Of a DNA stretch of 64,000 bases, positions 39,565 to 43,467 are shown one piece after another. Both the position numbers and the translations under genes were made by a program. The first letter of the stretch is position 1, and the number at the start of each line of letters is the position of its first letter. The notes beneath the pieces were generated by a model, which saw only the letters and a list, made by a program, of their open reading frames with translations, made no database searches and was not told the origin of the DNA. Origin of the DNA: Massilia sp. erpn (GTDB lineage: Bacteria; Pseudomonadota; Gammaproteobacteria; Burkholderiales; Burkholderiaceae_D); assembly GCF_024400215.1 (NCBI RefSeq), contig NZ_CP053748.1, positions 4,278,001 to 4,342,000 on the forward strand, read 5' to 3'.

Positions 39565-40491
39565 TCAGTGTTCGCAAGTGCCGTTGATTTCCGCCTGCAG
39601 CGTGACGTGGTCGATATCGTGTCTGGCCAGCAGCATGGCCTTGATGGCGGCCAGGATCTGCGGCCATTGCTGCAGGTCGGTGATTTCCACGTGGCCGATC
39701 AGCGCCGGATGGCCGGGCGACATATCCCATACATGCAGGTCATGCACGGCCAGCACGCCGTGCACAGCTTCCAGGTCGCGGCCCAGCTGCGGATAGTCGA
39801 TATGCGAAGGCACGCCTTCCATCAGATGGTGTCCCGATTCGCGCAGCACGCCGATGGTCGATTTCAGGATCAGCAGTGAGACCAGGATCGAAAGCAGCGG
39901 GTCGATCTGCATCCAACCCGTATACATGATGACGCCGCCCGCAATCAGTGCCGCCACGGAGCCGAGCATATCGCCCATCACATGCACCAGGGCGGCGCGG
40001 GTGTTCATATTCTCGCTGTCCTTCGACAGCACAAAAGCAACCACCAGATTGATCGCCAGGCCGATAGCGGCCACCACCAGCACCATGCCGCCTTGCACCG
40101 GTTGCGGCTGCGCGAAACGCTGGATGGCTTCAAACACGATCCAGCCCACTACGGCCAGCATGGCCAGGCCATTGACGAAGGCGGCCAGCGCCTCGGCGCG
40201 GCCAAAGCCGAACGAGTAATTGGAAGAAGGGCGGCGCTTGGCGATCAGCTGCGCCAGCAGGGCCAGGCCGAGCGAGGCGGCGTCCGTCACCATATGGCCG
40301 GCGTCGGAGATCAGTGCCAGCGAATTGGAGGCGAAGCCGGCCAGCACTTCGATGACTGCGAAACCCAGCGTCATAAAGAGCGCGATGGCAAGCGCGCTCT
40401 GGCTGCGTTTCTCGCTGAAGTGGGCGTGTTTGGCATCGCCGTCGCGGTGGGCGTGCAGATGCTCGGTAGTAGCTGTAGTCTTGGTTTGCAT
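39565..40491 (-). CDS. Cation diffusion facilitator (zinc-type) exporter
   Basis: A 308-aa CDF transporter. Six membrane segments begin near residue 35 after a His-rich N-terminus (EHLHAHRDGDAKHAH). Metal-site motifs: SDAGHMVTDA in TM2 and HVMGDMLGS in TM5, giving the HD-HD site typical of Zn/Cd exporters. The C-terminal cytoplasmic domain has VHDLHVWDMSPGHPALIGHVEI. It exports metal ions in exchange for protons. The ATG at 40491 gives the family-like start. Confidence 0.94.
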   Translation of the reverse strand: MQTKTTATTEHLHAHRDGDAKHAHFSEKRSQSALAIALFMTLGFAVIEVLAGFASNSLALISDAGHMVTDAASLGLALLAQLIAKRRPSSNYSFGFGRAEALAAFVNGLAMLAVVGWIVFEAIQRFAQPQPVQGGMVLVVAAIGLAINLVVAFVLSKDSENMNTRAALVHVMGDMLGSVAALIAGGVIMYTGWMQIDPLLSILVSLLILKSTIGVLRESGHHLMEGVPSHIDYPQLGRDLEAVHGVLAVHDLHVWDMSPGHPALIGHVEITDLQQWPQILAAIKAMLLARHDIDHVTLQAEINGTCEH

Positions 40492-40555
40492 AGTGCTCCG
40501 TTGTGTGCGCTGAATATAGCATAGCGCTACATGCAATGTTTTCTTGGGAAAACAC

Positions 40556-40584
40556 TTGTAATTTATGGAGCCGCTCCCTATAAT
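40556..40584 (+). promoter_or_regulatory. Sigma-70 promoter of the tRNA-Val genes
   Basis: TTGTAA (40556-40561), exactly 17 bp, then a consensus TATAAT (40579-40584). The predicted start lies just before the first tRNA (40595). A GC-rich segment follows the -10 element, as in stringently controlled tRNA promoters. Confidence 0.88.
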
Positions 40585-40594
40585 GCGAGTCCTC

Positions 40595-40671
40595 GGGCGG
40601 TTAGTTCAGCTGGTTAGAATACTTGGTCGACATCCAAGGGGTCGCAGATTCGAATTCTGCACCGCCCACCA
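40595..40671 (+). tRNA. tRNA-Val (anticodon GAC), copy 1
   Basis: A 77-nt tRNA with encoded CCA: 7-bp acceptor stem GGGCGGT/ACCGCCC, anticodon arm CTTGG-TCGACAT-CCAAG with anticodon GAC, and T arm with TTCGAAT loop. GAC reads valine codons GUC and GUU. Confidence 0.97.
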
Positions 40672-40704
40672 GAACATATAGTAAGATAGCAATTCAAAGA
40701 CAAC

Positions 40705-40781
40705 GGGCGGTTAGTTCAGCTGGTTAGAATACTTGGTCGACATCCAAGGGGTCGCAGATTCGAATTCTGCACCGCCCACCA
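40705..40781 (+). tRNA. tRNA-Val (anticodon GAC), copy 2
   Basis: Identical in sequence to the copy at 40595-40671 and 33 bp after it, so the two form a tandem repeat with 110-bp period and are presumably processed from one transcript. Anticodon GAC, CCA encoded. Confidence 0.97.
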
Positions 40782-40813
40782 GACACTGTAAGAGCGAGAA
40801 AGGCAAACCGGTT

Positions 40814-40849
40814 ATGACACCGCGAACTACCACCAAGGTATGTGAGTGA
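40814..40849 (+). CDS. Candidate thrS leader peptide
   Basis: An 11-codon ORF encoding MTPRTTTKVCE. Four of 11 codons are Thr (ACA, ACT, ACC, ACC), three of them consecutive. GAAAGG lies about 10 bp before the ATG. It sits 136 bp upstream of the threonyl-tRNA synthetase start and is followed by a strong terminator, so ribosome stalling at low Thr-tRNA could favour readthrough. Not proven; it could be chance, as the ORF is very short. Confidence 0.5.
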   Translation: MTPRTTTKVCE

Positions 40850-40890
40850 CGCTAGTCGACCGGCTTTCTTTTGCTTTGTCAATTTGAAGA

Positions 40891-40918
40891 AAAAACGCGG
40901 CTAGTCCGCGTTTTTTTT
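40891..40918 (+). terminator. Terminator/attenuator between tRNA-Val genes and thrS
   Basis: A GC-rich stem (40895-40900 with 40906-40911) with a CTAGT loop, preceded by six A and followed by eight T. It ends the tRNA transcript or serves as the conditional terminator of thrS, 67 bp before its ATG. Confidence 0.9.
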
Positions 40919-40984
40919 CGTCCGCAGTTCCCGCATTTCATTTTCAGCACTATTTTTATCCGGCCCTTGCGCCGATTGGAGATC

Positions 40985-42895
40985 ATGATGGTATCAGTCC
41001 GACTTCCCGATGGTTCCGTGCGCCAGTTCGATGCGCCAGTCACGGTGGCCCAGGTGGCCTCCAATATCAGCACCAGCCTGGCGAAAGCCGCGTTGGCCGG
41101 CAAGGTGGATGGCAAGGTGGTCGACACCTCCTTCCTGATCGAGAAAGACTCGGACATTGCCATCATCACCGACAAGGATGCCGATGGCCTGGATGTGATT
41201 CGCCACTCGACCGCCCACTTGCTGGCCTATGCGGTGAAGGAGCTGTATCCGGATGCGCAGGTGACCATTGGTCCGGTCATCGAAAATGGCTTCTACTATG
41301 ACTTCTCCTACAAGCGTCCTTTCACCCCGGACGATCTGGCGGCCATCGAGAAGAAGATGCAGGAGCTGGCCAAGAAGGACGAGCAGGTAACGCGCAAAGT
41401 GCTGCCGCGCGACGAAGCCGTGGCCTACTTCAAATCCATCAATGAGCATTACAAGGCTGAGATCATCGCCTCCATCCCGTCCAACGAGGATGTGTCGCTC
41501 TACACCGAAGGCGGTTTCACCGACTTGTGCCGCGGCCCGCACGTGCCATCGACCGGCAAGCTGAAAGTGTTCAAGCTGATGAAGCTGGCCGGCGCTTACT
41601 GGCGCGGCGACTCCAAGAATGAAATGCTGCAGCGCGTGTACGGCACCGCCTGGGCCAAGAAGGAAGATCAGGAGCAGTACCTGCACATGCTGGAAGAAGC
41701 CGAGAAGCGCGACCACCGCAAGCTGGGCAAGCAGCTTGACCTGTTCCACTTCCAGGACGAGGCGCCAGGCCTGATCTTCTGGCATCCGAAAGGCTGGACC
41801 ATCTGGCAGCAGGTGGAGCAGCATATGCGCGAAAAGTACCGCGTCAACGGCTACCAGGAAGTGAAAGCGCCGCAGATTCTCGACCATACGCTGTGGGAGA
41901 AAACCGGCCACTGGGGCAACTACCGCGAAAACATGTTCACCACGGATTCGGAAAGCCGCACCTACGCGCTGAAGCCGATGAACTGCCCAGGCCACATCCA
42001 GATCTACAACGCCGGCCTGCATTCCTACCGCGACCTGCCGCTGCGCTTCGGCGAGTTCGGCCAGTGCCACCGCAACGAGCCTTCGGGCGCGCTGCACGGC
42101 GTGATGCGCGTGCGCGGCTTCACCCAGGACGATGGCCACATCTTCTGTACCGAAGCGCAGATCGAAGCCGAGGTGACGGCCTTCCACGGTCAGGCCATGG
42201 AAGTCTATAAGGAATTCGGCTTCAGCAATATCGACGTCAAGATCGCCCTGCGTCCGGATAACCGCATCGGCACCGACGAGGTGTGGGATGCGGCGGAAGA
42301 GGCGCTGCGTTCGGCGCTGCGTTCCTGTGGCGTGGAATGGACCGAGCTGCCGGGCGAGGGCGCCTTCTACGGCCCGAAAATCGAATACCATCTGAAGGAC
42401 AGCCTGGGTCGCCCATGGCAGGTTGGCACCATGCAGGTGGACTTCTTCATGCCTGAGCGTCTGGATGCGGAATACGTCGATGTCGACAACACCCGCAAGA
42501 CCCCGGTCATGCTGCACCGCGCGATCGTCGGCTCGCTGGAGCGCTTCATCGGCATCCTGATCGAGAACTATGCCGGGGCCATGCCGATGTGGTTGGCGCC
42601 GGTCCAGGTATCGATCCTGAACATCTCTGACGCGCAAGCCGAATATGCAACGGAACTGGCCGCAAAGCTGCGTAAACTGGGCTTCCGCGTGCAGGCTGAT
42701 TTGCGGAACGAGAAGATTACGTATAAAATACGCGAACATTCCGTCCAAAAACTGCCGTACATTCTGGTGATCGGTGACAAAGAGCGGGATGCCAACACCG
42801 TGGCCGTGCGCGCACGGGGCAATGTCGATCTGGGCGTGATGTCCATCGATGCCCTGGTGGAGCGACTCCAGCAGGATGTCGCTACCAAAGCCTGA
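40985..42895 (+). CDS. thrS: Threonyl-tRNA synthetase
   Basis: A 636-aa class II synthetase. TGS domain at residues 1-62 ([22 protein letters not shown]), editing domain with [17 protein letters not shown] and [19 protein letters not shown], catalytic core with [11 protein letters not shown] (zinc-binding Cys) and [27 protein letters not shown], and an anticodon-binding C-terminus. It charges tRNA-Thr. Two adjacent ATGs (40985, 40988) follow GGAG. First enzyme gene of the thrS-infC-rpmI-rplT-pheST operon. Confidence 0.98.
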
Positions 42896-42945: not shown

Positions 42946-43467
42946 ATAGCTACTGACAAGTCGCATCGCATCAATGGCGAAATCACCGCACCCGAAATGC
43001 GTCTGAGTGGGGTGGAAAACGAACCGCTCGGTATCGTGAGCCTGGCCGAAGCCTTCCGTCTGGCGGAAGAAGCGAACGTGGACCTCGTGGAAATCGCGCC
43101 GAACGCGACTCCACCGGTCTGCCGTCTGATGGACTACGGCAAGTTCAAGTATTCGGAGCAGAAAAAAGCCCACGAAGCGAAATTGAAGCAGAAAGTCATC
43201 TCGGTGAAGGAAGTCAAATTCCGTCCCGGTACCGATGACGGCGATTACAACATCAAGCTGCGTAATCTGATCAAGTTCCTGGAAGACGGCGACAAGACCA
43301 AGATTACGCTGCGTTTCCGCGGCCGCGAAATGGCGCACCAGGACATCGGTATGCGCATGCTGGAGCGTCTGAAGGGCGATCTGGAACCCCATGGCCAGGT
43401 AGAACAGTTCCCGAAAATGGAAGGCCGCCAGATGATCATGGTTCTGGCGCCGAAAAAGAAAAAGTAA
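42946..43467 (+). CDS. infC: Translation initiation factor IF-3 (apparent AUA start)
   Basis: A 173-aa IF-3 if translation starts at ATA 42946. The N-terminal family sequence ([21 protein letters not shown]) lies upstream of the first ATG (42997), and AAAGGA lies 8 bp before the ATA. The N domain ends near residue 80, the C domain has [25 protein letters not shown]-3 rejects non-AUG start codons, so an AUA start would allow autoregulation as known for AUU in E. coli infC. Confidence 0.93.

Follow-up and report, generated by a model that had tools for sequence, protein, structure and literature searches.

A Threonine-Codon Leader between tRNA-Val Genes and thrS in Massilia and Other Burkholderiales Has the Layout of a Ribosome-Mediated Attenuator

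A Leader Region Separates Two tRNA-Val Genes from thrS

The window, by which we mean the whole 64,000-nucleotide stretch of Massilia sp. erpn DNA that was analyzed, carries thrS, the gene for threonyl-tRNA synthetase (ThrRS), as an open reading frame (ORF) at 40985–42895, with ATG codons at both 40985 and 40988; this gene and the parts upstream of it described below lie on the forward strand. Upstream of it are two genes for tRNA-Val (GAC), at 40595–40671 (ARAGORN; 62 bits with the Rfam tRNA model) and 40705–40781 (ARAGORN), which look identical and are spaced 33 nt apart. They are preceded by a sigma-70-like promoter, TTGTAA-17-TATAAT (40556–40584), with 10 of 12 consensus matches (shuffles average 0.6), which, judged on its sequence, is the probable start of a transcript running through tRNA-Val, the leader, and thrS; consensus matching gave no further promoter-like site in 40450–41050. 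From their product sequences, the genes downstream of thrS read as infC, rplT, pheS, pheT, and ihfA. The infC start seems to be a non-standard ATA at 42946–42948 (ATA GCT ACT GAC AAG), preceded by AAAGGAAA, and the list of open reading frames puts it at 42997; rare start codons are common in IF3 genes.

The gap between the end of the second tRNA-Val (40781) and the thrS ATG (40985) measures 203 bases, as a sequence-only reading of this DNA had stated, and the 11-codon Thr-rich ORF that it described there is confirmed. This leader ORF, MTPRTTTKVCE (40814–40849; ATG ACA CCG CGA ACT ACC ACC AAG GTA TGT GAG TGA), has Thr at codons 2 (ACA), 5 (ACT), 6 (ACC), and 7 (ACC) and is preceded by the Shine-Dalgarno (SD) sequence AGAAAGG (40797–40803). 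The SD sequence falls within the 5′ arm of a stem, P0 (40791–40813, as 40791–40802 and 40808–40813), whose 3′ arm, GACCGGCTTTCTTTTGCTTT (40858–40877), pairs with the leader ribosome site; both arms are taken from the minimum-energy fold of the free transcript and from coevolution. Region 1, CCGCGAACTA (40820–40829), covers codons Pro3 to Thr6 and is predicted to pair with region 2 when free of ribosomes. Region 2, CGCTAGTCG (40850–40858), the putative 5′ half of an antiterminator, lies directly 3′ of the stop codon, and its partner, region 3, CGCGGCTAGT (40896–40905), consists of the terminator's left arm and loop. The terminator claimed for this gap is also present, as a 13-bp hairpin with the loop CTAGT at 40888–40918 (−15.1 kcal/mol, z = −4.1 versus 200 shuffles), the right half of which (40906–40918) includes the U run. 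The first gene after the putative attenuator is thrS. Right before the thrS ribosome site GGAG there is also a small hairpin, CCGGC...GCCG (40960–40981), which many, though not all, of the genus loci read possess and which is a possible second control layer.

The Leader Is Conserved as a Coding Sequence within the Genus

A strong ThrRS match (first 200 residues) was found in 73 of 74 genomes of the genus, the window's own included, and the upstream stretch of all 73 was read (30 loci and 43 stretches). The leader pattern occurred in 72 of these 73 regions; the remaining one is cut by a contig end and holds only the right part of the terminator. Because the search pattern fixes ATG ACA CCG CG(A/G) ACT, these codons do not vary among the 72 complete regions, each of which begins its leader with MTPRTT, so the conservation of the ORF and its Thr codons on which the sequence-only reading had made its proposal depend is borne out. 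Codon 4 is CGA in 72 of 72 leaders. Codon 6, which the pattern leaves free, is ACT in 46, ACC in 14, ACG in 8, and ACA in 4, so that all four Thr codons are used and never another residue; variation limited in this way to third positions is typical of coding sequence. Thr also stands at codon 7 in 64 of the 72. Region 2 was located in 70 of the 72 leaders, and in 66 of these it begins 3 nt past the first stop-codon base; the GC core of the terminator was recognized in 71 of 72.

The pattern occurs once in the Massilia sp. erpn genome, with no further leader copies, and a similarity search of that genome returned four weak matches (68–79% identity), none reaching the leader ORF or the terminator. 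One genome of the genus, G008, a single contig listed as 100% complete, had no strong ThrRS match and no leader pattern, and its thrS may be divergent. In seven genes of the window, CGA accounts for 3 of 166 Arg codons, and ACA and ACT for 2 and 12 of 112 Thr codons, which means that the leader begins with rare codons.

Thr-Rich Leaders Occur across the Order

For the order we read the upstream stretches of the best 144 of 294 ThrRS-carrying genomes, ranked by ThrRS score, which represent 82 genera and 32 families. A tRNA-Val (GAC) lies upstream of thrS in 101 of the 144, and a terminator in 122; simple and stricter terminator scans missed the terminator of the window itself or those of relatives; the order counts use a looser rule. 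The gap before the terminator is at least 80 nt in 97 of these 122 genomes and shorter than 80 nt in 25. Under a loose leader rule (SD, short ORF, and [RPL]T near the ORF start), leaders were found in 73 of the 97 genomes with room, in 46 of 58 genera, and in 20 of 24 families, compared with means of 7.2 genomes, 6.7 genera, and 5.8 families in 40 shuffles (maxima 12, 11, and 9). With at least three Thr required, the rule retained 52 genomes, 33 of 58 genera, and 15 families, where shuffles gave 1.3 each (maximum 4). Two leader picks, in G122 and G213, were judged wrong by eye, which leaves 71 of 144 genomes and 20 of 32 families; both were excluded from this count and from the smaller-footprint folding, and, with G307 (start unclear), from the family swaps and the larger-footprint folding described below, while the comparison of the loose rule with shuffles (73 of 97) retains all. 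In 12 of the 32 families the rule found no leader, and in some of these the tRNA-Val terminator alone precedes thrS.

The enrichment is for Thr. In one genome per genus, SD-preceded short ORFs with at least three Thr codons were present in 29 of 58 genera (mean 1.8, maximum 5, in 60 dinucleotide shuffles) and those with at least four in 24 (mean 0.6, maximum 2, in 60 shuffles); when all genomes were used and the SD was allowed two nt further upstream, these counts rose to 33 and 26. Thr was by far the most enriched residue. Arg was raised (19 genera versus 5.5, maximum 11), since the Thr run follows an Arg codon, and other residues stayed at or near shuffle level. Leader peptides of the order include MFRTRTTTQR, MSFRTTTTGTLNLG, MFKRTTTTRISR, MKHWRTTTTRHSHAS, MQLNRTTTTS, MTPRTLTETTSERR, and MPRTRTTTGFFSRRG; Thr-poor leaders also exist, namely MTPRTFPSLI (two Thr), MPRTRLFFGAINRRG (one Thr), and MTPRTWSFHSGL (one or two Thr). 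Carriers include Duganella, Oxalicibacterium, Cupriavidus necator, Ralstonia, Acidovorax, Comamonas, Roseateles, Piscinibacter, Rhodoferax, Aquitalea, Vogesella, Aromatoleum, and Thauera. Of 45 genera, 33 carry the codon pair CGA ACT (40823–40828 in the window) and 6 carry CGA ACG. Aquitalea-type leaders such as that of locus L204 also retain CGA ACT, even though by eye their 1:2 stem seems to draw on other Thr codons, and pairing alone may not account for this.

We also built a covariance model from 25 Oxalobacteraceae leaders (25 of 40 references aligned; L052, L054, and L055 had been removed from the reference list). Matches came from 54 of the 300 genomes of the order that were searched. 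In 35 of the 54 the top match sits immediately before thrS (within about 210 nt), and it lies elsewhere in G101, G149, G324, and G326 (all E > 0.001), the remaining 15 being outside the comparison; secondary matches elsewhere were the second and third of G233 and the second of G282. Thirty non-beta thrS loci, two of them nearly without upstream sequence, yielded one weak ORF with three Thr (L092), a count made without shuffle control.

These distributions bear on the simplest alternative, namely that the terminator is merely the end of the tRNA-Val operon, that thrS is expressed from leftover readthrough or a promoter of its own, and that the ORF is incidental. Several lineages look as this account would have it: 25 of the 122 terminator-bearing genomes have the short gap, and little beyond a terminator separates tRNA-Val from thrS in families f14, f35, and f37, in one of the two f36 genomes, and in part of f24 and f43, which leaves a leader no room; a tRNA-Val terminator without a leader may be the older state. 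Yet most of the 97 longer gaps hold an ORF, many more than shuffles would yield; region 2 coevolves with the terminator arm (see below); consensus matching found no promoter-like site between terminator and thrS in the window; and the f49 genomes, which have no detected tRNA upstream, and Acidovorax (L057) still carry leader and terminator. We regard this account as very unlikely. In f14 (L216, L264, and L276) and similar genomes, tRNA-Val and thrS are about 56–77 nt apart with a terminator and no leader, a state that perhaps precedes the origin of the leader or follows its loss.

P0 and the 2:3 Pairing Coevolve between Families

Duplex energies of the candidate strands were compared with those of shuffles of the same stretches in one genome per genus (46 genera). 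Because the genera and families are related, the p values from these shuffles and from the swaps below are guides rather than exact probabilities, and on that footing the 2:3 pairing (40850–40858 with 40896–40905) gave a Fisher p of 5.6e-7, with 8 of 46 genera below 0.05, and the 1:2 pairing a Fisher p of 0.001, with 6 of 46 below 0.05; the window genome alone gave p = 0.080 for 2:3 and p = 0.395 for 1:2. Coevolution was assessed by swapping partners between families (5000 swaps; 44 genera, 20 families). Own 2:3 pairs were better than swapped ones by 1.31 kcal/mol, with only 7 of 5000 swaps as good, and 1:2 was weaker (145 of 5000). P0 showed the strongest coevolution, at 2.71 kcal/mol with 0 of 5000 swaps as good, in 43 genera and 19 families, one genus being dropped because its stretch was too short. 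This coevolution supports the earlier suggestion that a long stem could hide the leader ribosome site, and P0 is also part of the minimum-energy fold of the free transcript. For the stems, in which the sequence-only reading had proposed to look for compensatory changes, coevolution appears across families for P0 and 2:3; inside the Oxalobacteraceae covariation is nil or weak (none for P0), because the stems hardly vary there. The 209-nt region as a whole does not fold clearly better than its shuffles (z = −1.11; 26 of 200 shuffled versions fold at least as well).

The same strands enter a second alternative, in which ThrRS itself binds the leader RNA at an operator of the E. coli type and acts on the terminator or on translation. 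There is precedent in E. coli, where ThrRS controls thrS on its own mRNA (PMC9976931), and by eye the UAGU or UGGU of region 2 and the terminator loop resembles the Thr anticodon NGU. Pairing with the ACUA of the ORF, however, accounts for UAGU, the spacer from terminator to thrS differs in both length and sequence among the Massilia loci compared by eye, and an RNA operator would not need the Thr-coding constraint seen at the synonymous codon 6. We consider control by ThrRS binding very unlikely. The small hairpin before the thrS ribosome site recurs in part of these loci.

A Folding Model Reproduces the Proposed Switch

We modeled the switch by folding the transcript as far as the terminator loop while a ribosome masked 17 nt on the 5′ side and 15 nt on the 3′ side of the first P-site base. 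This footprint was picked after a smaller-footprint result, because the smaller ones did not cover the ribosome site; the folding across genera also included Thr codons that come before the Arg-Thr pair. For the window transcript (40782–40905), 2:3 pairing was 0.00 both in the free state and with a ribosome on the stop codon, and stalls at Thr codons 2, 5, 6, and 7 gave 0.77, 0.64, 0.65, and 0.44; the exact numbers are not to be trusted because they shift with the transcript end, being nearly the same for an end at 40907 and falling to 0.04–0.37 in the stalled states for an end at 40904 (0.24–0.75 with the start at 40784). P0 pairing was 0.70 in the free transcript. A stall at codon 2, which covers the ribosome site, had the largest effect in the window model. 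Smaller footprints gave stalled 2:3 values for the window of 0.00–0.05, 0.03–0.41, or a mean of 0.14.

Across 44 genera, 2:3 pairing in the stalled state exceeded that in the free state by 0.363 (0.029–0.149 in 12 shuffles) and that at the stop codon by 0.415 (0.056–0.151 in 12 shuffles). The full switch appeared in 22 of the 44 genera, compared with 2–9 in shuffles, and was absent from the other 22. The smaller footprint gave the same direction in 41 of 45 genera with differences exceeding those of 12 shuffles, and in absolute terms its pairing in the stalled state did not exceed that of shuffles (0.346 versus 0.349–0.467).

The antiterminator of the sequence-only reading was a different one, CCGCG inside the ORF (40820–40824) pairing with CGCGG of the terminator's left arm (40896–40900), an arrangement under which translation would block antitermination; both motifs are present and complementary, CCGCG in 72 of 72 genus leaders (as the search pattern requires) and CGCGG in 71 of the terminator cores, and the window genome reaches p = 0.023, but this 1:3 pairing gives no signal over 46 genera (Fisher p = 0.24, 2 of 46 below 0.05, the window genome included) or in family swaps (1824 of 5000 as good), has a pairing of only 0.00–0.02 in every modeled state of the window, and is disfavored on logical grounds as well, since a ribosome stalled at Thr 5–7 would cover CCGCG and favor termination, all of which makes it scarcely credible. 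What finds support in the layout proposed there is a Thr-codon attenuator, whose leader reaches well outside the genus, together with the stem over the leader ribosome site; the strands assigned to the antiterminator do not find it.

A Proposed Mechanism for Attenuation at thrS

Taken together, the sequences and the folding model make it very probable that this element is a ribosome-mediated transcription attenuator, adjusting thrS to the availability of charged tRNA-Thr. Computation finds each part of such a device: an ORF with Thr codons (Thr enriched over shuffles, codon 6 changing only synonymously), an intrinsic terminator ahead of the first structural gene (seen in the window and, across the order, in 122 of 144 genomes), conservation of both, coevolution of P0, and an antiterminator that can be blocked from the stop codon and excludes the terminator (region 2 positioned alike in 66 of 70 leaders, 2:3 coevolution, and the modeled switch).

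In the course of events that we infer, from tRNA-Val co-transcription through leader translation, stalling, and readthrough to a physiological response, the transcript would start upstream of the two tRNA-Val genes and continue through the leader. In free RNA, or once the leader ribosome has gone, P0 would sequester the ribosome site (with 40858–40877) and region 1 would pair with region 2, leaving region 3 available to region 4, so that the terminator forms and thrS is off. When Thr-tRNA is sufficient, a ribosome at the stop codon would cover region 2, and the terminator would again form. When Thr-tRNA is short, a ribosome stalled at Thr codon 2, 5, 6, or 7 would leave region 2 free to pair with region 3; the 2:3 helix would then exclude the terminator, and polymerase would enter thrS and the genes behind it.

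A more elaborate version, which we put forward tentatively and think rather less likely to hold than to fail, is a two-sensor attenuator within a tRNA operon, in which thrS is read only as long as a ribosome stays at the beginning of the leader. The leader ribosome site would here be one strand of a master helix, P0, and in leaders of the MTPRT type the rare codons ACA (2), CGA (4), and ACT (5) would hold the ribosome, with codon 2 as the main sensor. If this were true, the tRNA promoter would feed thrS, and Thr shortage alone would open thrS with tRNA-Val output unaffected.

The Element Resembles Known Attenuators in Layout

The leader attenuators of Proteobacteria (trp, his, thr, leu, ilv, and pheA) have a short ORF with cognate codons and a region 2 near the stop codon, and in classical attenuators 2:3 is the antiterminator and 3:4 the terminator. 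The putative thrS attenuator shares this layout. It differs in standing before an aminoacyl-tRNA synthetase gene, not a biosynthetic operon, and in having its leader behind tRNA genes, and the likeness found is one of layout. The nearest model, Rfam Leu_leader (RF00512), gives an end-to-end alignment that scores 25.9 bits versus a cut-off of 50, below the score for membership. At its cut-offs Rfam 15 matched nothing in the window, tRNAs included, and a short-stretch scan gave both tRNAs above cut-off; in 20 further loci the only matches were tRNAs and HPnc0260, which overlaps tRNAs and lies below cut-off. Known Rfam leaders were accordingly rejected for the window and these 20 loci, none matching at cut-off. 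A T-box was likewise rejected, with no Rfam covariance-model match in the window at gathering scores or in 40500–41100 up to E = 5. The T-box riboswitch of Firmicutes thrS senses tRNA charging and can control a terminator, as the element described here would, but it does so by binding tRNA directly.

The attenuator leader of pheST is PheM, with Phe codons. Classical attenuation before synthetase genes is described for pheST in gamma-proteobacteria and for leuS and trpS in Streptomyces (PMC1262725). Those systems belong to other clades and use Phe, Leu, or Trp codons instead of Thr; in the window, pheS and pheT are among the genes behind the putative thrS attenuator. A possible thrL leader before thrS in Streptomyces lividans, MKRVRPFLETTPGFVPAR (two Thr), with a leaderless start and no clear terminator (PMC8079986), shares the presence of a Thr-containing leader peptide before thrS, but this actinobacterial peptide bears no resemblance to MTPRTT by eye. 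In E. coli the same gene is regulated, with translational control by ThrRS bound to an mRNA operator that mimics tRNA (PMC9976931).

The mechanism looks to be of a known kind and the element new for thrS in Betaproteobacteria. To our knowledge, the E. coli operator has neither a leader peptide nor a terminator switch. The text covered from PMC2965389, PMC4833913, PMC6429828, PMC4603805, PMC9976931, PMC1262725, and PMC8079986 mentions no betaproteobacterial Thr leader before thrS. An earlier mention may exist in Lopatovskaya and others (2010), which reportedly treats attenuation of aminoacyl-tRNA operons, or in Vitreschak (2004).

Implications for thrS Control

Regulation of E. coli thrS, with ThrRS repressing its own mRNA, is textbook material. 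An attenuator at thrS here and ThrRS repression there would mean that the same gene is under different control systems in related clades, and 20 of the 32 sampled families (15 with at least three Thr codons) seem to use a leader-peptide attenuator for thrS. Since no Rfam 15 leader family matched at cut-off in the window or in the 20 further loci, the element would allow a leader gene to be annotated in many genomes. At this locus one terminator joins a tRNA operon to an aminoacyl-tRNA synthetase operon, which suggests a way in which a tRNA terminator could be recruited as an attenuator.
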